From the NCBI GenBank assembly GCA_902623685.1, contig CACNUQ010000007.1, positions 1-53,431 of the forward strand: a stretch of 53,431 bases of DNA, written 5' to 3'. The notes under the pieces were generated by a model. The model did not search any database. It was not told the DNA's origin and saw nothing but the letters and a program-made list of their open reading frames with translations. Below, piece after piece: positions 15,654 to 23,763 of the stretch. Position 1 is the stretch's first letter; the number at the start of each line of letters is the position of its first letter. Source of the DNA: an uncultured SAR86 cluster bacterium. GTDB lineage: Bacteria; Pseudomonadota; Gammaproteobacteria; Magnimaribacterales; D2472. The position numbers and the translations under genes were made by a program.

Positions 15654-16340
15654 TCATCGCCTTAATAGTATAACCATCCAGCGACCAAGGTTTAAAATAT
15701 CGGCTAACGCAGCAGAAACATAAGTAAGGGATGCAGCCTTCAAAATACGACTAACGGCTTTTTCGTTTGACTTAGATACATAATTCCCCTCCTTTAATAA
15801 AGGTAGCGCTTTAGAAAAACTTGCATCAAACTCAATCGGCAGTGTCACAGCATGGACCATCATACGAGCAATAAAACCTGATAGCCCCAGGAAAAGTAAT
15901 AAAGAAAATGGCATAGGATGTCGCGTAATAATTCCGATTACTGGTGATAAAGAGATAACGGCAACACTTCCACGAGCTATCTTTTCAACAATAGGAATCA
16001 TCTTTGTCCTGGTAGCCAGACGTTTATCGCCTTGCTGATCCTGAATTGCATGCCCAACCTCATGGGCCGCAATAGCGATTGCAGTCAAAGACTTAGATTC
16101 ATAATGCTCACGCAAAAGCCTTACTTTTTTTTCGATTGGATCATAATGATCTCCTAGCTCAGTTACCTCAACTTCCACATCTTTTAAAGAAAATCGCTTA
16201 ATCAGATGCTTTGCTAGCTCTCCGCCAGTACCAGGCATTTCAGGCTTTTCCAATGAGTACCACCTCATAACCAACTTCACCCATAACGTTGGTCCAAATA
16301 TCAGTGCCAGAACTATGAGCGTGCCCAACGCTAAAACCAT
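15654..16340 (-). CDS. YugP-type membrane zinc metallopeptidase
   Basis: A 228-residue protein matching the membrane zinc peptidase family of Bacillus YugP in length and layout. It has an N-terminal membrane helix, a soluble stretch with HYDPIEKKVRLL, then the zinc-binding IAAHEVGHAIQDQ near residue 92 (HExxH) and two or three further helices. An AVTLPIEFDAS segment follows in the family as the third-ligand region and is present here. It is expected in the inner membrane with the active site facing the cytosol; substrates are unknown. Confidence 0.85.
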   Translation of the reverse strand: MVLALGTLIVLALIFGPTLWVKLVMRWYSLEKPEMPGTGGELAKHLIKRFSLKDVEVEVTELGDHYDPIEKKVRLLREHYESKSLTAIAIAAHEVGHAIQDQQGDKRLATRTKMIPIVEKIARGSVAVISLSPVIGIITRHPMPFSLLLFLGLSGFIARMMVHAVTLPIEFDASFSKALPLLKEGNYVSKSNEKAVSRILKAASLTYVSAALADILNLGRWMVILLRR

Positions 16341-18116: not shown

Positions 18117-18134
18117 CTATTCCACCGTCACTGA
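18117..18134 (-). repeat. glmS 3'-end copy 5 (SVTVE-TAG)
   Basis: The minus strand reads TCA GTG ACG GTG GAA TAG, i.e. S-V-T-V-E-stop. It is identical to the copy at 19031-19048, and the match continues into the following AT(A/G)AA. A hairpin TCACTG / CAGTGA (18128-18151, loop 12) overlaps its glmS-proximal side. Confidence 0.8.
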
Positions 18135-18152
18135 TTAAGTTTAAACAGTGAT

Positions 18153-18527
18153 TTACATATCTAATAGTGGATTTCTTCCCCATTTGTTTTCATCCTCTTT
18201 TGCTGGAAGCATTAGTAAAATGAAAATTACAAACACCCCAATAATAGTGAAATAAGACAATTGCCACCATCCTGAAATGCCCCTGTCTTGAAGTCTTCTA
18301 GAGGTTACAGATATGTAGGGAATGATAATAATAATTTGAAAGAATGTTGAAAATGGCCCATAGACACTTCCTTCGTTTTTGGTTGCTAGTGTCATTTCGA
18401 TAATTGTTAAACTGAAAGTTACTATGCTTGCAAAAAGGTAAAAATACCAATACTCACTTCTGCACGCTCTTCCACTAAAATTTTTCCAATTTGTAAAGAC
18501 TGAAATAAATGATTCTTTAATATTCAT
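18153..18527 (-). CDS. DUF805 membrane protein, cassette 5 cargo
   Basis: A 124-residue protein with the DUF805 signatures: NFSGRACRSEYWYFYLF near residue 16, SRRLQDRGISGWWQL near residue 76 and a final NKWGRNPLLDM. There are three to four hydrophobic helices in the inner membrane; function unknown. It follows the NTF2-like gene of the same cassette by 50 bases and ends 19 bases before the next glmS-tail copy. Confidence 0.85.
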   Translation of the reverse strand: MNIKESFISVFTNWKNFSGRACRSEYWYFYLFASIVTFSLTIIEMTLATKNEGSVYGPFSTFFQIIIIIPYISVTSRRLQDRGISGWWQLSYFTIIGVFVIFILLMLPAKEDENKWGRNPLLDM

Positions 18528-18577
18528 AATTTCTTCTCTTTAAATCTCTGTTCAAACTTAATCGGTGATTTAATTCT

Positions 18578-19030
18578 TTATTTTCCAGTTGAAATATTTA
18601 TTGGAATTATAGCGATCTTTAATTTCCAATAATCTCCTCTTTTTATTAAAGTTAAATTTGTATCTGTAGATATAAGTTCAACATCTTGGTTGTTAAATCT
18701 AGTGAAGTTAGTTTTATATATTGCAAAATCTTCTTGTGAAACTATTGGATCTATCGAATTGATTTTTGAATATGCCCAACCTTCTTTTTTTAAGTTTTCA
18801 TAATTAACAATTTCACTGTAACTTTTTGCAACTACTATTTCATCACCAACAAAATAAGTAATTGGTAAATCCCATAGTTCATTAATTTTATTTATATCCA
18901 TCTCATTGAAATGATAGAAAAAATCTTCGATCACTTTCTCTGGGTTGTTGTTTGCGTCTTTTGCAAATAACAAAGAAGAAAATAAAAATAAAGTTAATAA
19001 AATGTTTCTAATATAAATCACTGTTTTCAT
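18578..19030 (-). CDS. secreted NTF2-like protein, cassette 5 first gene
   Basis: A 150-residue protein with a signal peptide (IRNILLTLFLFSSLLFAKDA) followed by one domain that opens with PEKVIEDFFYHFNEMDINKINELW and ends with LTLIKRGDYWKLKI, the helix-then-sheet pattern of NTF2/SnoaL-like folds. Function unknown. Its ATG directly follows the TAG of a glmS-tail copy. GGTGGA within that tail lies 4 bases before the ATG and may serve as ribosome site, so in the donor it would have been translated right behind glmS. Confidence 0.6.
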   Translation of the reverse strand: MKTVIYIRNILLTLFLFSSLLFAKDANNNPEKVIEDFFYHFNEMDINKINELWDLPITYFVGDEIVVAKSYSEIVNYENLKKEGWAYSKINSIDPIVSQEDFAIYKTNFTRFNNQDVELISTDTNLTLIKRGDYWKLKIAIIPINISTGK

Positions 19031-19048
19031 CTATTCCACCGTCACTGA
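19031..19048 (-). repeat. glmS 3'-end copy 4 (SVTVE-TAG)
   Basis: The minus strand reads TCA GTG ACG GTG GAA TAG, the GlmS C-terminus with GTG/ACG/GTG codons instead of GTT/ACC/GTC in the resident glmS. A short hairpin GTAGA/TCTAC (19049-19066) sits just upstream on the minus strand. The stop is followed immediately by the ATG of the next cargo gene. Confidence 0.8.
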
Positions 19049-19122
19049 GTAGATTTAACTGTCTACTTGTTGGTTTATGGAATCTAATTAAAAATTCTAT
19101 GTGCCTTTCTTTCATTAAACTC

Positions 19123-19509
19123 CTATGTTGTTTTGCTGAACTTCTTGTGAGTCAATGTAAACAAACATGCTCCAATTATAGTCCATAGAATATCATTCCA
19201 ATCGAAGACACCTCTTCCAGGTGTAAAAATTGTAATGAACTCATTGGCAATTAATCCCAATATGGAGATTCCTACTGACCAATAGAGTCGATTTTTAAAT
19301 AAAGATGAATAAGGTTTGGATACTTCTGGAATCACCACATATAACAGAGCAGGCAATCCAATTCCTGGCAAGAAATTTGGAGCAACCCCAAGAAGATAAA
19401 TTATTATTTCATTAGCACCATCATAATTTGGTCTTATGTAATCCTGGACTACAGAAAAAAGCAAAAAAGAAATAGCAAAAATAATGTAATAAACGAACTT
19501 TCTATTCAT
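19123..19509 (-). CDS. VanZ-like membrane protein, cassette 4 cargo
   Basis: A 128-residue protein with about four hydrophobic helices. PNFLPGIGLPALLYVV, FTPGRGVFDWNDILWTIIGA and a basic tail resemble VanZ-like proteins, in which a R/G-x-x-D-x-x-D segment precedes the last helix. Function unknown. It is the only gene between glmS-tail copies 3 and 4, and starts 60 bases after copy 3. Confidence 0.55.
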   Translation of the reverse strand: MNRKFVYYIIFAISFLLFSVVQDYIRPNYDGANEIIIYLLGVAPNFLPGIGLPALLYVVIPEVSKPYSSLFKNRLYWSVGISILGLIANEFITIFTPGRGVFDWNDILWTIIGACLFTLTHKKFSKTT

Positions 19510-19568
19510 TTTTATGTTTTATCACTAATATTTAATATCCACAATCTTGTAAAAGTGGACAGTTCTAT

Positions 19569-19586
19569 CTACTCGACAGTAACAAA
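19569..19586 (-). repeat. glmS 3'-end copy 3 (FVTVE-TAG)
   Basis: The minus strand reads TTT GTT ACT GTC GAG TAG, i.e. F-V-T-V-E-stop. A small hairpin CAAAT/ATTTG (19583-19595) overlaps the glmS-proximal side. The bases after the stop (ATAGAACTGTCCAC) weakly resemble those after the resident glmS stop. Confidence 0.75.
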
Positions 19587-19591
19587 TTAGA

Positions 19592-20036
19592 TTTGAGTGC
19601 AGAATTAAGAGTATAGTTTTTTCTGAACCCTTTGTGAAACTTCAAATAAAATTCAATATCTTTATAGTTCATAAAAAATCAACATATCATGCAATGATCG
19701 ATAAGAATTTTGCCCTCTTCTTCCTTAAAAATTGCTTGATTGATCAATTCGTCATTGCTTGAAGAAGTTTTTTGTTTCCAAACAATTCCAACTGAGTCGC
19801 TTCTTCGAAATAAACACACAAACTCTCTTTTAGTCCAAAAAATATTTGGTTCAATTGATAACTGTCTTTTGAGTTCTTCAGGTGTAACTATGGACTTCAT
19901 TCTATCTGTGAAATCCTTTGTATGCTTTTTATGGTCACCCTCATTGGAACCCTCCAAACAACTATCCATAATCGGTTCTACTATACTAAGAATTTCATCT
20001 TCACTAAGATTGGGGAGTTTCAATTCTGCACTCAAA
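19592..20036. repeat. 15-bp perfect inverted repeats bounding cassette 3
   Basis: TTTGAGTGCAGAATT at 19592-19606 recurs in inverted orientation at 20022-20036. The pair lies just inside the two glmS-tail copies that flank the 120-aa orphan gene; the right copy is within its first codons. This looks like a terminal inverted repeat of that cassette. Confidence 0.6.
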
Positions 20037-20041
20037 CTCAT
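19679..20041 (-). CDS. 120-aa protein of unknown function, cassette 3 cargo
   Basis: The start is placed at the ATG that overlaps the TGA of a glmS-tail copy (GAATGAG: stop and start share ATGA). A longer frame to 20074 would read through the repeat and is less likely. The protein opens MSLSAELKLPNLSEDEILSI and contains EGDHKKHTKDFTDRMKSIVT, reminiscent of NTF2-like DUF3887-type domains, then a beta-rich half with FVCLFRRSDSVGIVWKQK. It is likely cytosolic, with no catalytic motif. The function is not recognised; the fold suggestion is weak. Confidence 0.6.
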   Translation of the reverse strand: MSLSAELKLPNLSEDEILSIVEPIMDSCLEGSNEGDHKKHTKDFTDRMKSIVTPEELKRQLSIEPNIFWTKREFVCLFRRSDSVGIVWKQKTSSSNDELINQAIFKEEEGKILIDHCMIC

Positions 20042-20055
20042 TCCACCGTAACGGA
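20038..20055 (-). repeat. glmS 3'-end copy 2 (SVTVE-TGA)
   Basis: The minus strand reads TCC GTT ACG GTG GAA TGA, i.e. S-V-T-V-E-stop, with a TGA stop that overlaps the ATG of the downstream cargo gene. It is part of a longer direct repeat shared with copy 1. Confidence 0.8.
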
Positions 20056-20116
20056 TTGTTCTTAACCCACCCAATATTTAACATTTATTGATTATCGCAT
20101 AAGTTAGAATGTTTTT

Positions 20117-20926
20117 ATGAGAGTAATAACTTGGAATTTAAATTCACGAACAAATAAAAAAGATTTAACTGAACAATGTGATTATTTGAGAAAAGGAGAC
20201 TTTGACATAATCACACTTCAAGAAGTTCTTTTAGGTTCAGAGGGTTTTATAAAAGACTATTTTGCCAATGAGGGTGTTATATGTTCTTTCGACTTGGTTA
20301 AAGATAAGTCTGTATTAGTGAATAAAAGAAAATATGGTCAAATAATAATCTCTAAAAGTCCTATTATTAATATAGAGGAGTTTGCTCCAGTTCCTTTTCC
20401 TGAAAGGGTTTTATCTTGTTCTATACAGGATTATGAAGTTCACACTACCCATGTTCCACCAGGGTCATCGAATGGAGTTATTAAAGTTGAACACTTTGAG
20501 GGTCTGTATAAATTTCTATCACAAAGGGGTGTTAAGAATATGATACTGACTGGCGACTTTAATTCACCAAAACAAGAGTTGATGTCTGGTGAAGTTATAA
20601 CCTGGGGTCAAAAAGTAAACTCAAATGGGAAAGTAAGAATTGCTGTTAATCCCAAGTGGAAGGATGAGTGTACTGGTGAAAGATGGGATCTTGCTGAAAG
20701 AAACATTATTGAAAATCATACAGATTTAGACATGAAGGATGTATTTAGATCTCAACATGGTTATGAGAAAGAGTCTTTTAGTTGGTTTACTAATAAGGGT
20801 GTTGGCAGAAGATATGATCATATTTTCTGTTCATCTAATATGAGAGTTGATAATGTGTTTTATGATCAAGAACCAAGAACAAGAAAAATTAGCGATCACT
20901 CACCACTAATTGCTGAGTTGGGTTAA
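20117..20926 (+). CDS. endonuclease/exonuclease/phosphatase-fold protein, cassette 2 cargo
   Basis: A 269-residue single-domain protein with the EEP motifs in order: ITWNLNS near residue 4, DIITLQEVLLGSEG with the metal-binding glutamate near 36, THVPPGSS near 111, MILTGDFNSPKQE near 141 (catalytic Asp/Asn), RRYDHIFCSSN near 237 and KISDHSPLIAEL at the end (catalytic Asp-His). It may be an AP-endonuclease-like DNase, phosphodiesterase or phosphatase. It is the only cargo gene running opposite to glmS. There is no signal peptide, so it is cytosolic. Confidence 0.8.
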   Translation: MRVITWNLNSRTNKKDLTEQCDYLRKGDFDIITLQEVLLGSEGFIKDYFANEGVICSFDLVKDKSVLVNKRKYGQIIISKSPIINIEEFAPVPFPERVLSCSIQDYEVHTTHVPPGSSNGVIKVEHFEGLYKFLSQRGVKNMILTGDFNSPKQELMSGEVITWGQKVNSNGKVRIAVNPKWKDECTGERWDLAERNIIENHTDLDMKDVFRSQHGYEKESFSWFTNKGVGRRYDHIFCSSNMRVDNVFYDQEPRTRKISDHSPLIAELG

Positions 20927-20962
20927 ACCTATTCGACAGTAACCAAGTGTTTTTAACCCAAC
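20917..20962. terminator. 11-bp inverted repeat around glmS-tail copy 1
   Basis: GTTGGGTTAAA at 20917-20927 and TTTAACCCAAC at 20952-20962 are perfectly complementary with a 24-base spacer that contains the glmS-tail copy. The left arm includes the stop of the EEP gene. It could end transcription from both convergent genes. Confidence 0.4.
20929..20946 (-). repeat. glmS 3'-end copy 1 (LVTVE-TAG)
   Basis: The minus strand reads TTG GTT ACT GTC GAA TAG, i.e. L-V-T-V-E-stop. It is the displaced copy nearest to glmS and forms the spacer of an 11-bp inverted repeat. Confidence 0.8.
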
Positions 20963-20993
20963 CTATATTTAACATTTTAGATTATCGCATAAG

Positions 20994-21713
20994 TTAAAAG
21001 GGTATATCTTCGTCTTCGAAGACATGAATATCATTTTCATAGTTAATTGCAGAGTTTTTTGATAAGGGTTTAGTGGTTCCACCCTTCCAGTCTGAAAAAA
21101 TTTCATTTGTTTTTGATTCTACGAACTCATTTATTTCCTCTTCGGATATCATTACCCTTGAAAATGTTCCCCCAAGCAACTCATTAAGACTGTCTGCAAC
21201 AACTGTTAACATCATAATTGATCCTGTAATTGGCAATGTTAAAAATCTTGCAACAAACAATGGAAGATATACTGCTAAATTTTTATCACCAACTTTTTCT
21301 TCGGGATAACTCATAATTTCCATAAAACCATCATTAAACTCTTTTATAATTTTTGGATCCACGATTCCTTGTAACGATTTATAGTCTTTTCTTGAGATAT
21401 GTTTTCTAGCATACTTTCTAACATTAAGTTTGAACTTTTCTTTTTCTATTTCTATTTCTACTAATAATTTTTTTGGTGTTTCTTCTAGAAATGAAACAAT
21501 ATAAGTATCACTTTTGTAATCATTACAAACCCAACACAATGTTTGAATATTGTATTCACTCAATTCAAGATCAGGTCTTAATTTTCTGGGAATAATGTGA
21601 TCGCCACACAACCTTTTTGTAGAACCACACCTCAAACAAGATTTGTCTCTTTTTCGAATCTTTTTGCTTAACGACTTCCACTCTTTAGAATTAAGAAAAT
21701 CGTCTTTTGCCAT
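20994..21713 (-). CDS. HNH endonuclease with SSB-like C-terminal tail, cassette 1 cargo
   Basis: A 239-residue protein (start at the ATG of MAKDDFLN, one base after the stop of the small gene upstream; an upstream TTG is an alternative). The HNH module occupies the first 70 residues: CLRC (26-29), CGDHIIPRK with the catalytic His, then TLCWVCNDYKS with the second cysteine pair and the N-x-x-K ending. A hydrophobic stretch near residues 147-175 (YLPLFVARFLTLPITGS) suggests membrane contact. The last residues, FEDEDIPF, closely match the acidic DDDIPF tip of single-stranded DNA-binding protein. Likely a DNA nuclease, perhaps in defence or conflict; role inferred. Confidence 0.75.
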   Translation of the reverse strand: MAKDDFLNSKEWKSLSKKIRKRDKSCLRCGSTKRLCGDHIIPRKLRPDLELSEYNIQTLCWVCNDYKSDTYIVSFLEETPKKLLVEIEIEKEKFKLNVRKYARKHISRKDYKSLQGIVDPKIIKEFNDGFMEIMSYPEEKVGDKNLAVYLPLFVARFLTLPITGSIMMLTVVADSLNELLGGTFSRVMISEEEINEFVESKTNEIFSDWKGGTTKPLSKNSAINYENDIHVFEDEDIPF

Positions 21714-21714
21714 C

Positions 21715-21879
21715 TTATTTGAAACCTTTGAAGTTTTTAACAACTATAAAAACTATTACCCCGATTGTTATTCCAACTAAGGAATCAAACCAACCTACGG
21801 GTCTAACATTAGAAACATAAAACAAAAATGCTGTGACCCCTAAAATTATTGAAATTATTGTTGAAATGCTAAATCTCAT
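21715..21879 (-). CDS. 54-aa membrane protein, cassette 1 first gene
   Basis: A short frame beginning MRFSISTIISIILGVTAFLF, then a polar stretch and a second helix (SLVGITIGVIVFIVV), ending KNFKGFK. It starts 58 bases after the resident glmS stop and ends one base before the HNH start (TAA-G-ATG), so the two are surely co-transcribed and probably coupled. No family recognised. Confidence 0.55.
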   Translation of the reverse strand: MRFSISTIISIILGVTAFLFYVSNVRPVGWFDSLVGITIGVIVFIVVKNFKGFK

Positions 21880-21936
21880 AAGATCATCTTCTCAATAATT
21901 TTAAATAACTACAAGATTTGAAATGTGGCGAAGTCT

Positions 21937-23763
21937 TTATTCGACGGTAACGGATTTTGCTAAGTTCCTTGGTTGGTCTAAATCGGTGCCTCTTTGACAA
22001 GCAACTTGATATGCAAGGATCTGAAGTGGAATAGTGTAAATAATTGGCGCTAGTAGCTCGCTGCACTCCGGCATTTGAATGTATTCACCTCTTTCAATTT
22101 TAATTTTTGCATTCTCTCCGCCAAAAACATAAAGCGTTCCGCCCCTAGCTTTCACCTCTTCAAGATTTGAAACTAATTTTTCAGTTAGAGTATTTTCAGG
22201 TGATAGTGCAACAACAGGTATTTGATCATCAACCAATGCCAACGGGCCGTGTTTAAGCTCTCCTGCAGGATAAGCTTCAGCATGAATATATGAAATTTCT
22301 TTAAGTTTTAATGCGCCTTCTTGAACAATAGGAAAAAACATTCCTCTGCCTAGAAATAAAGCATTATGTTTATCAGCTATATTGGGAACAATGTTCAGGA
22401 TCTCATTAGAAAGTTTCAATGTCTCTTCAATCACCTTCGGCAGATTTCTTAACTCATATGCAAGATTTTTTCTTTGTTCTTTATCTTTATTTAAGCTTTT
22501 TGCAATAGACATGGCCAGAAGCATTAAACCTGCAAGCTGAGTTGTAAAAGCTTTCGTTGATGCAACACCTATTTCAGGGCCAGCATTAGTAAAAAGAACG
22601 TGCTCCGATTCTCTAGCAAGAGAACTAGTTGGTACATTGCAAATTGACAGAGTGCTTAAATAGTCTTTTTCTTGTGCATACCTTAGGGCAGCAAGAGTGT
22701 CAGCGGTTTCACCTGATTGTGAGATAGTAACAAACAAGGTGCCTTTCTCAACAAGCGGATCTCTGTATCTATACTCGCTAGCAAAGTCTACATAGCATGG
22801 AATTTGAGCTATGTGTTCAAACCAAAACCTTCCAACTTTTCCTGCATGAAGGCTTGTGCCACATGCAACAAACTGAATCCTTTTAATTTTGCTAAAAACT
22901 TCTGATGAACCTAAACCAAATATGTTATCTAATACGTCATCATCTCCGAGCTTCCCATCAATAGTGTTTGCTAATGCGGTTGGTTGTTCATATATCTCTT
23001 TCTCCATAAAGTGTGAGTACTCGCCCTTAGTAACTGCATTTACCGCTATGTCTATTTGGGTTACATCTCTTGTGACAGGAGAGTTATTTTCATCAAATAC
23101 TTGATAGCTCTCCTTGGTAATTTCTGCAATGTCACCATCCTCTAGAAAGACAAACTCACTGGTAAGCTGCGATAAAGCCAATGGGTCAGATGCAGCAAAA
23201 TTTTCTTCTAGGCCGATTCCAATCAATAATGGGCTTTTATTTCTTGCAACCACTAATCTATTTTTATCTTTGATGTGAATAGCTGCTATTGCAAAAGCGC
23301 CATCAAGTTCTTTAATAGCCTCATGCATGGCAGCAAGCAGATCGCCGTTCGACTGAAGATGTTGATGCAGTAGGTGCGCAATAACCTCTGAATCAGTCTC
23401 TGATTCAAAAGCATAGCCAGCCTCGATCAATTTATCTTTAAGCTCGAGATAATTTTCTATGATTCCATTATGAACAATGTTAACTTCTCCACTTGATGCA
23501 TGCGGATGTGCGTTTTTTTCTGATGGTTTACCATGCGTTGCCCAACGTGTATGAGCAATCCCAAGTTTGCTTTTCGGGCGCTGCTCAATCATCTCATCTT
23601 CGAGCAAGCTCACTTTGCCTAAAGTTCTAAGATTAAAAATATTATCTTTTTGATGAAGAGCAATACCGGCTGAGTCGTAGCCACGGTACTCCATCTTATG
23701 CAAACCTTGAACCAATAACTTTCCAACGTTGCGAGATGATGCCGCCCCTATAATTCCACACAT
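21937..23763 (-). CDS. glmS: glutamine-fructose-6-phosphate aminotransferase
   Basis: Makes glucosamine-6-phosphate from fructose-6-phosphate and glutamine, the first step of amino-sugar synthesis for peptidoglycan and lipopolysaccharide. The 608-residue protein starts MCGIIGAASSRNVG, with the N-terminal nucleophile Cys exposed after Met removal. The glutaminase domain has HTRWATHGKPSEKNAHPH. The two SIS domains include CGTSLHAGKVGRFWFE and SQSGETADTLAALRYA. It ends NLAKSVTVE, the conserved C-terminus. ATG follows the glmU stop by one base. Its 3' end is copied five more times downstream. Confidence 0.98.
   Translation of the reverse strand: MCGIIGAASSRNVGKLLVQGLHKMEYRGYDSAGIALHQKDNIFNLRTLGKVSLLEDEMIEQRPKSKLGIAHTRWATHGKPSEKNAHPHASSGEVNIVHNGIIENYLELKDKLIEAGYAFESETDSEVIAHLLHQHLQSNGDLLAAMHEAIKELDGAFAIAAIHIKDKNRLVVARNKSPLLIGIGLEENFAASDPLALSQLTSEFVFLEDGDIAEITKESYQVFDENNSPVTRDVTQIDIAVNAVTKGEYSHFMEKEIYEQPTALANTIDGKLGDDDVLDNIFGLGSSEVFSKIKRIQFVACGTSLHAGKVGRFWFEHIAQIPCYVDFASEYRYRDPLVEKGTLFVTISQSGETADTLAALRYAQEKDYLSTLSICNVPTSSLARESEHVLFTNAGPEIGVASTKAFTTQLAGLMLLAMSIAKSLNKDKEQRKNLAYELRNLPKVIEETLKLSNEILNIVPNIADKHNALFLGRGMFFPIVQEGALKLKEISYIHAEAYPAGELKHGPLALVDDQIPVVALSPENTLTEKLVSNLEEVKARGGTLYVFGGENAKIKIERGEYIQMPECSELLAPIIYTIPLQILAYQVACQRGTDLDQPRNLAKSVTVE

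Follow-up and report, generated by a model that had tools for sequence, protein, structure and literature searches.

Arrays of one-gene cassettes are known from integrons, whose attC sites have a GTTRRRY core with exchange at its end, and the dyad of these sites lies beside the crossover and is not centred on it. The transposon Tn7 recognises the 3' coding end of glmS, where it tolerates silent changes, and inserts downstream of the stop codon without exchanging half of the coding end. The elements known as SCC and ECC, according to excerpts of two accounts (PMC6222049, PMC8407400), are inserted by Ccr large serine recombinases at the 3' end of rlmH; their att sites are direct repeats, inverted repeats give the element site a dyad symmetry, and some elements have more than one copy of attR. 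The genomic islands of the Methylophilaceae, in the portions of their description available (PMC10872708), have a tRNA gene as their border and a tyrosine recombinase among their genes, with glmS as the first conserved gene at their end.

The window, that is, the whole stretch of 53,431 nucleotides analysed here, comes from an uncultured SAR86 cluster bacterium, and the earlier note on it dealt with an HNH nuclease gene and its small membrane partner. Our analysis places this gene pair in an array of small cassettes at the 3' end of glmS, which is absent from that note. We consider it quite likely that the pair is cargo of this array, which would grow by site-specific insertion through a Ccr-like serine recombinase acting in trans. 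There is good support for the array and for its site-specific origin, a serine recombinase is the likely agent, and we infer that it acts in trans.

Like SCC, the cassettes of the glmS array insert into the 3' end of a host gene, a gene that is restored in the process, and they have inverted repeats that form a dyad around the att core (at 12 of 19 positions or more in 78 of 151 cassettes); with SCC and ECC, as the excerpts describe them, the array also shares direct-repeat tail copies and, in the array of one genome (G084), a large serine recombinase. It differs from SCC in its target, which is glmS and not rlmH, in the absence of ccrAB and ccrC, the one enzyme being a 551-aa protein in a single array that scores below the CcrB cut-off, in the small size of its cassettes (median 752 bp), nearly all of them without enzyme, and in its several arm families, its central AC and its exact tail copies, of which a genome has up to 10. 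As in integrons, small genes stand in rows of changing order, most of them pointing the same way (131 of 153), and each boundary has its recombination site; unlike in integrons, exchange occurs at the centre of the dyad, a host gene provides its coding end as the site, and no integron integrase was recognised among the PF00589 matches in 26 genomes of the window's genus. The glmS target and the tolerance of silent changes are shared with attTn7, but the exchange lies inside the coding end and is not an insertion downstream of the stop codon. Tycheposons and flexible islands likewise gather accessory genes at a fixed site in small genomes, whereas the Methylophilaceae islands differ by their tRNA border and tyrosine recombinase, the word 'serine' being absent from the main text of their description as far as available (PMC10872708). 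Among the matches listed from the open-licence literature (titles and starts of abstracts), no description of glmS-end cassettes was found.

A cassette array at the 3' end of glmS

The 608-aa ORF of the window that ends RNLAKSVTVE is presumably glmS, a name given by recall of its sequence. We wrote the 3' end of this gene (SVTVE and the stop codon) as the tail pattern TCNGTNACNGTNGARTRR, which has 11 fixed bases of 18; copies of it in which silent bases vary freely stand at the cassette boundaries. The features of the array in the window are the following.

21937-23763, (-) strand: glmS, 608 aa, the host gene, with the insertion site at its 3' end
21937-21954, (-) strand: true glmS tail TCCGTTACCGTCGAATAA, with the putative crossover at AC
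20947-21936, (-) strand: cassette 1, 990 bp, with the 54-aa protein and the HNH protein; the third cassette parsed in G031 is 95.8% identical to it
21715-21879, (-) strand: 54-aa membrane protein, partner of the HNH protein; relatives retain SNVRPVGWFDSLVG
20994-21713, (-) strand: HNH protein ORF, 239 aa, ATG at 21713, C-terminus ...NDIHVFEDEDIPF-stop
20994-21020, (-) strand: SSB-like C-terminal tip FEDEDIPF and stop, from a [DE]-D-I-P-F pattern search and translation
20929-20946, (-) strand: displaced tail copy TTGGTTACTGTCGAATAG, one mismatch
20056-20928, (-) strand: cassette 2, with an endonuclease/exonuclease/phosphatase gene at 20117-20926 on the (+) strand
20038-20055, (-) strand: displaced tail copy TCCGTTACGGTGGAATGA, exact
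19587-20037, (-) strand: cassette 3, with a 118-aa protein of unknown function; arms match at 16/19
19569-19586, (-) strand: displaced tail copy TTTGTTACTGTCGAGTAG, one mismatch
19049-19568, (-) strand: cassette 4, with a 128-aa protein, hydrophobic by eye
19031-19048, (-) strand: displaced tail copy TCAGTGACGGTGGAATAG, exact
18135-19030, (-) strand: cassette 5, with a 150-aa and a 124-aa protein; probably two fused cassettes that would have lost a tail near 18541-18572
18117-18134, (-) strand: displaced tail copy TCAGTGACGGTGGAATAG, exact, the last recognised in the window
15654-16340, (-) strand: Zn_peptidase_2-like gene, named from the Pfam match of the G084 copy

The 128-aa protein of cassette 4 belongs to a cluster of eight ORFs in eight loci, where it occupies array positions 0, 1, 2, 3 and 5. 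The endonuclease/exonuclease/phosphatase gene at 20117-20926 runs opposite to glmS, as do all five ORFs of its cluster, which come from five loci. At 18541-18572, remnant arms stand without a tail between the 124-aa and 150-aa genes, like a deleted boundary. A loose repeat pattern applied to the window alone was not above chance (six matches against a shuffle mean of 3.5, with six or more reached in 17 of 100 shuffles); the signal for the array came from the tail pattern across genomes.

The tail pattern is present in 87 of the 107 genomes of the family (SAR86), and exact copies number at least two in 74 of the 107 genomes, at least three in 48 and ten at the maximum, the reversed pattern giving at most one per strand. 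The matches listed are clustered and lie on one strand in all but a few genomes. One copy per genome should be attributable to glmS itself. When a pattern two bases longer (20 bases) was searched in a sample of 369 genomes of the class, 367 of them outside the family, it occurred at least once in 308 of the 369; outside the family, among the matches listed, there were never more than two copies, and two were found in 12 of the 367. Among the genomes searched, only the window's family showed arrays of three or more tail copies. A locus of another family (L141; G550:C15, ~143430 and 144410) has two tail copies 980 bp apart, and the right arm before the second copy (..CCATCCAAAAACAT) resembles an arm in the SAR86 locus L075, so that the system may extend beyond SAR86.

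The anatomy of the cassettes was described on 40 glmS loci including the window, which we chose ourselves from printed coordinates, favouring genomes with more copies; of the 40 stretches fetched, L080 was left out as too short, and the window was added. Cassettes were defined by bounding tails with at most one mismatch and by gaps under 6 kb, which gave 197 tails and 157 cassettes with a median length of 752 bp. All 40 loci hold the true glmS end and 39 a displaced tail, L079 having the true end only. In 131 of the 153 ORF-bearing cassettes, the longest ORF is on the same strand as glmS. The 279 cassette ORFs, nine of which belong to a spurious last 'cassette' of L075 that runs past the border gene, form 188 clusters, and eight of these occur in five to eight loci, each at several positions. 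A Pfam scan of 146 cluster representatives of 75 aa or more, some of them from the spurious L075 stretch, found 78 families; the 25 shown include HNH, type I and other restriction genes, MvaI/BcnI, Mrr, SRA, McrB-like genes, DNA methylases and aldo-keto reductases. The Zn_peptidase_2-like gene lies behind glmS on the same strand in 18 of the 40 loci, the window included, and was not found in the other 22 fetched stretches, many of which extend at least 9 kb past the last tail; it is therefore not a universal border. A recurrent 89-aa protein, represented at L068:6164-6430, resembles residues 188-228 of CcrB (E 0.0011), and its cluster (five ORFs in five loci) looks like a stand-alone piece of part of a large serine recombinase.

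The window and a second genome, G031, both carry the HNH, 118-aa, 128-aa and 150-aa cassettes, in a changed order. The HNH cassette, whose 95.8% identity between the two extends over 1003 bp, adjoins glmS in the window and follows the 118-aa, 128-aa and 184-aa genes in G031. In its left tail, the second part, ACCGTCGAATAA, is identical in the two genomes and the first part differs. Of cassette 2 of the window, the fetched G031 stretch has the common right end only.

The HNH protein and its SSB-like tip

The earlier note was right to call the 239-aa protein an HNH nuclease and not an SSB: Pfam places an HNH domain at residues 26-69 (E 3.5e-8), and no match to the SSB (OB-fold) domain was found in the protein up to E 1. 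The hydrophobic middle that it described is present and is borderline, with a best 19-residue Kyte-Doolittle mean of 1.68 at residue 154. The pairing with the 54-aa membrane protein is tight, the stop codon of the partner lying 1 nt ahead of the HNH ATG, and the partner has two strong hydrophobic stretches; the two genes are presumably co-transcribed.

The C-terminus reads ...HVFEDEDIPF and is like the tip of SSB in having acidic residues followed by IPF at the extreme end; it is unlike it in standing on an HNH protein without SSB match, in a family where two of the three members have the tip. The pattern [DE]-D-I-P-F-stop, written with GAN for its first codon, was searched over 26 genomes of the window's genus and gave 26 matches, with at least one in 25 of the 26 genomes and none for the reversed pattern. 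On translation and with our own SSB motif, 24 of these matches are SSB proteins, all 24 ending ISEEDIPF, and two are the HNH protein, in the window and in G031; these are also the two of the 279 cassette ORFs that have this tip. Because the matches in the genus all fall on SSB or the HNH protein and the reversed control is empty, the FEDEDIPF ending is a specific one and did not turn up by chance, and the likeness to SSB noticed earlier is real.

We give an even chance to the explanation that FEDEDIPF arose by coincidence in a tail that is acidic and changes fast, and that it plays no part in docking. The comparison of homologues that had been suggested as a check on the ending points both ways. 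A search of 203 genomes of the order gave three members of the HNH family (window, G031 and G078), and the sample of 369 genomes of the class gave none besides the window's own. The G031 homologue retains the tip at 95% protein identity; over the cassette the DNA of the two is ~96% identical, so that little can be concluded from the retained tip, and this is the sole tip-keeping homologue. The distant G078 homologue (39-43% identity) retains the membrane partner, 63% identical to the 54-aa protein, and ends ...NLHRSGRKE, without the tip. These two points favour a coincidence. They are countered by the occurrence of the ending otherwise on SSB only in the 26 genus genomes, and by the alignment of homologues, where DEDIPF is kept although the linker ahead of it differs and has an indel.

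The DNA-conflict setting put forward in the earlier note fits, because the cassettes of relatives hold several restriction-modification and nuclease genes; PADLOC, on the other hand, matched the HNH domain only (PDC-M01B, 1.6e-6; PtuB, 5.8e-4), with no full-length match of the HNH protein to any system protein and no match for the 54-aa partner at E 0.05. A PDB sequence search with the HNH profile returned nothing at E 0.1, and structure prediction from a three-sequence input was poor (mean pLDDT 41). No full relative of the HNH protein was found in viral contigs, where an alignment query matched nine loci within HNH residues 13-75 only; phage records (20 of 62 shown) and all five plasmid records match it within residues 1-78 only. 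The HNH protein is probably a membrane-tethered nuclease active in DNA conflict, and docking of its tip to the partner proteins of SSB, such as RecO, RecQ and PriA, is plausible on the motif. The full combination, in which the tip would dock on the host repair proteins that bind SSB tips while the HNH protein, tethered to the membrane, acts in DNA conflict, is one that we put forward tentatively.

The exchange point and the candidate recombinase

Homologous cassette ends in different genomes were compared for the silent bases of their tails, in pairs that are not independent and with cassettes under 120 bp left out. At right ends (102 pairs), silent bases 3 and 6 agree at 0.84 and 0.75, against 0.35 and 0.33 expected, and bases 9, 12 and 15 are not shared (0.30, 0.38 and 0.46). 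At left ends (112 pairs), bases 9, 12, 15 and 18 agree at 0.57, 0.63, 0.96 and 0.79, against 0.37, 0.35, 0.52 and 0.49 expected, and bases 3 and 6 are not shared. The same split is found with exact tails only, in the 103 of 157 cassettes that have such tails and a length of 150-4000 bp. Since silent bases 3 and 6 and silent bases 9-18 follow opposite cassettes, strand exchange maps between bases 6 and 9, around the central AC (bases 7-8), which would be the exact cut. This AC is invariant in 40 of 40 true tails; the displaced tails have the A in 156 and the C in 157 of 157, a conservation of coding bases that is partly due to their selection with at most one mismatch.

Within a cassette, the left arm is complementary to the right arm, and the centre of symmetry lies at 7.5, the middle of the AC. 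This centre scores 0.58 and the next 0.357, and swapped arms reached a maximum of 0.443 in 1000; the symmetry is seen at distances of roughly 11 to 29 bases from the centre. With cassettes under 200 bp left out (151 of 157 kept) and at the best arm offset of 4 bases, the 78 cassettes that reach 12 of 19 matching arm bases or more compare with a null mean of 17 and maximum of 29, and 73 fall below this mark. The arms fall into several families. A two-base overlap within a long dyad is the layout of a serine-recombinase site and, as read from the sequences, tail and arms have the att geometry of such an enzyme. Left ends of the forms AGAAA..TTTCT.GGTTGA and AGAC.TCGCCA, directly after the tail, make up a class without a matching right arm that is seen in several arrays (for example in the first cassette of L069, and in L072) and to which the window HNH cassette belongs. 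The left and right arms of the latter do not match each other, and it may no longer be mobile.

Insertion of the cassettes at the glmS end by a tyrosine recombinase, integron-like or the host's XerC/XerD, would agree with integrons being the known one-gene cassette arrays and with the presence of tyrosine recombinases in 26 of 26 genus genomes. These PF00589 proteins are nearly all Xer-sized (~301-319 aa, one or two per genome) and are taken for XerC and XerD, an extra match occurring in two of the 26 genomes. Tyrosine recombinases need 6-8 matching bases, whereas at the crossover no invariant run is longer than the two bases AC and the flanking silent bases differ between partners; the dyad, moreover, is centred on the crossover, unlike that of attC. 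We therefore regard such an enzyme as an improbable agent. A shuffling of the array that relied on ordinary homologous recombination between old repeats, and on no site-specific enzyme active today, would explain why nearly all genomes are without a serine recombinase gene, and it would suit the right-end module of 51 bp that two different cassettes have in common at 88%. It is nevertheless unlikely, as no more than 11 of the 18 bases of the tail pattern are fixed, exchange is confined to a sharp point, and that point is the centre of arms that covary within each cassette. A Tn7-like transposon that recognised the glmS end and left repeated tails would share the target of Tn7 and its tolerance of silent changes, but is very improbable with an exchange that lies inside the glmS coding end.

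As to the serine recombinase that we favour as agent, PF00239 matches occur in three of the 107 family genomes, and only that of G084 lies inside its array; those of G079 and G088, located away from their arrays, were set aside. The enzyme is thus unseen for nearly all arrays, in a set where many genomes are incomplete. The G084 protein is a large serine recombinase of 551 aa in the first element behind glmS (Resolvase 6.1e-24, Recombinase 1e-11). Its nearest NCBIfam models are CcrB (8.4e-23) and XisF (8.1e-22), both far below cut-off (80.8 bits against a cut-off of 900 for CcrB), and its PDB relatives include the SPbeta YokA recombinase and the TP901-1 integrase. Its stop codon adjoins the right arm of the element, which is ~6 kb long and has no internal tail with two or fewer mismatches. 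The arms of this element (GTTTAGTCGGTCTTTCCCC/GTTTAATCGGTCTTTCATT) match those of the G078 cassette with the HNH relative (GTTTAGTCGGTCTTTCATT/GTTTAATCGGTCTTTCATT). As there are several arm families, one enzyme is unlikely to serve all cassettes. Viral contigs gave no arm-plus-tail match and no relative of the G084 recombinase. The G084 element also has a replication-protein-like gene (L105:13684-14145; REP_ORF2-G2P, PF23343, 1.6e-6), which hints at a self-replicating element.

In the model that we propose, a circular cassette would carry an att site made of the right arm, the glmS end AN-TCNGTNA/CNGTNGARTRR and the left arm, with the two arms as inverted repeats on either side of the central AC. 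The cassette would be inserted by recombination with the final codons of glmS, and its left half-site would rebuild ...SVTVE-stop, leaving glmS intact and the old tail displaced downstream; repeated insertion would build the array, with the newest cassette beside glmS. The best candidate for the enzyme is a Ccr-like large serine recombinase on rare autonomous array elements, which would act in trans on cassettes with matching arms, and the whole would be an SCC-like platform whose small cassettes are mobilised in trans.

Accessory-gene exchange in SAR86

SAR86 genomes are small and largely uncultured, and the array bears on the exchange of accessory genes in lineages of this kind. The balance is even, in our judgement, for the broader proposal that SAR86, a lineage abundant in the ocean, has a second bacterial cassette platform besides integrons, with cassettes of one to a few genes, one that would work by replacement of the end of the essential gene glmS with a Ccr-like enzyme supplied in trans by rare elements and carry much DNA-conflict cargo, including one borrower of the SSB tip. 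A fixed att grammar, consisting of the glmS end and inverted arms, would allow the accessory cassettes of SAR86 to be listed from metagenomes and their insertions to be ranked by position. It would also provide recombinase tests with a natural protein-coding target site that is conserved well beyond SAR86 (308 of the 369 class genomes), and the HNH case adds the idea that the tip of SSB may be grafted onto a mobile nuclease.
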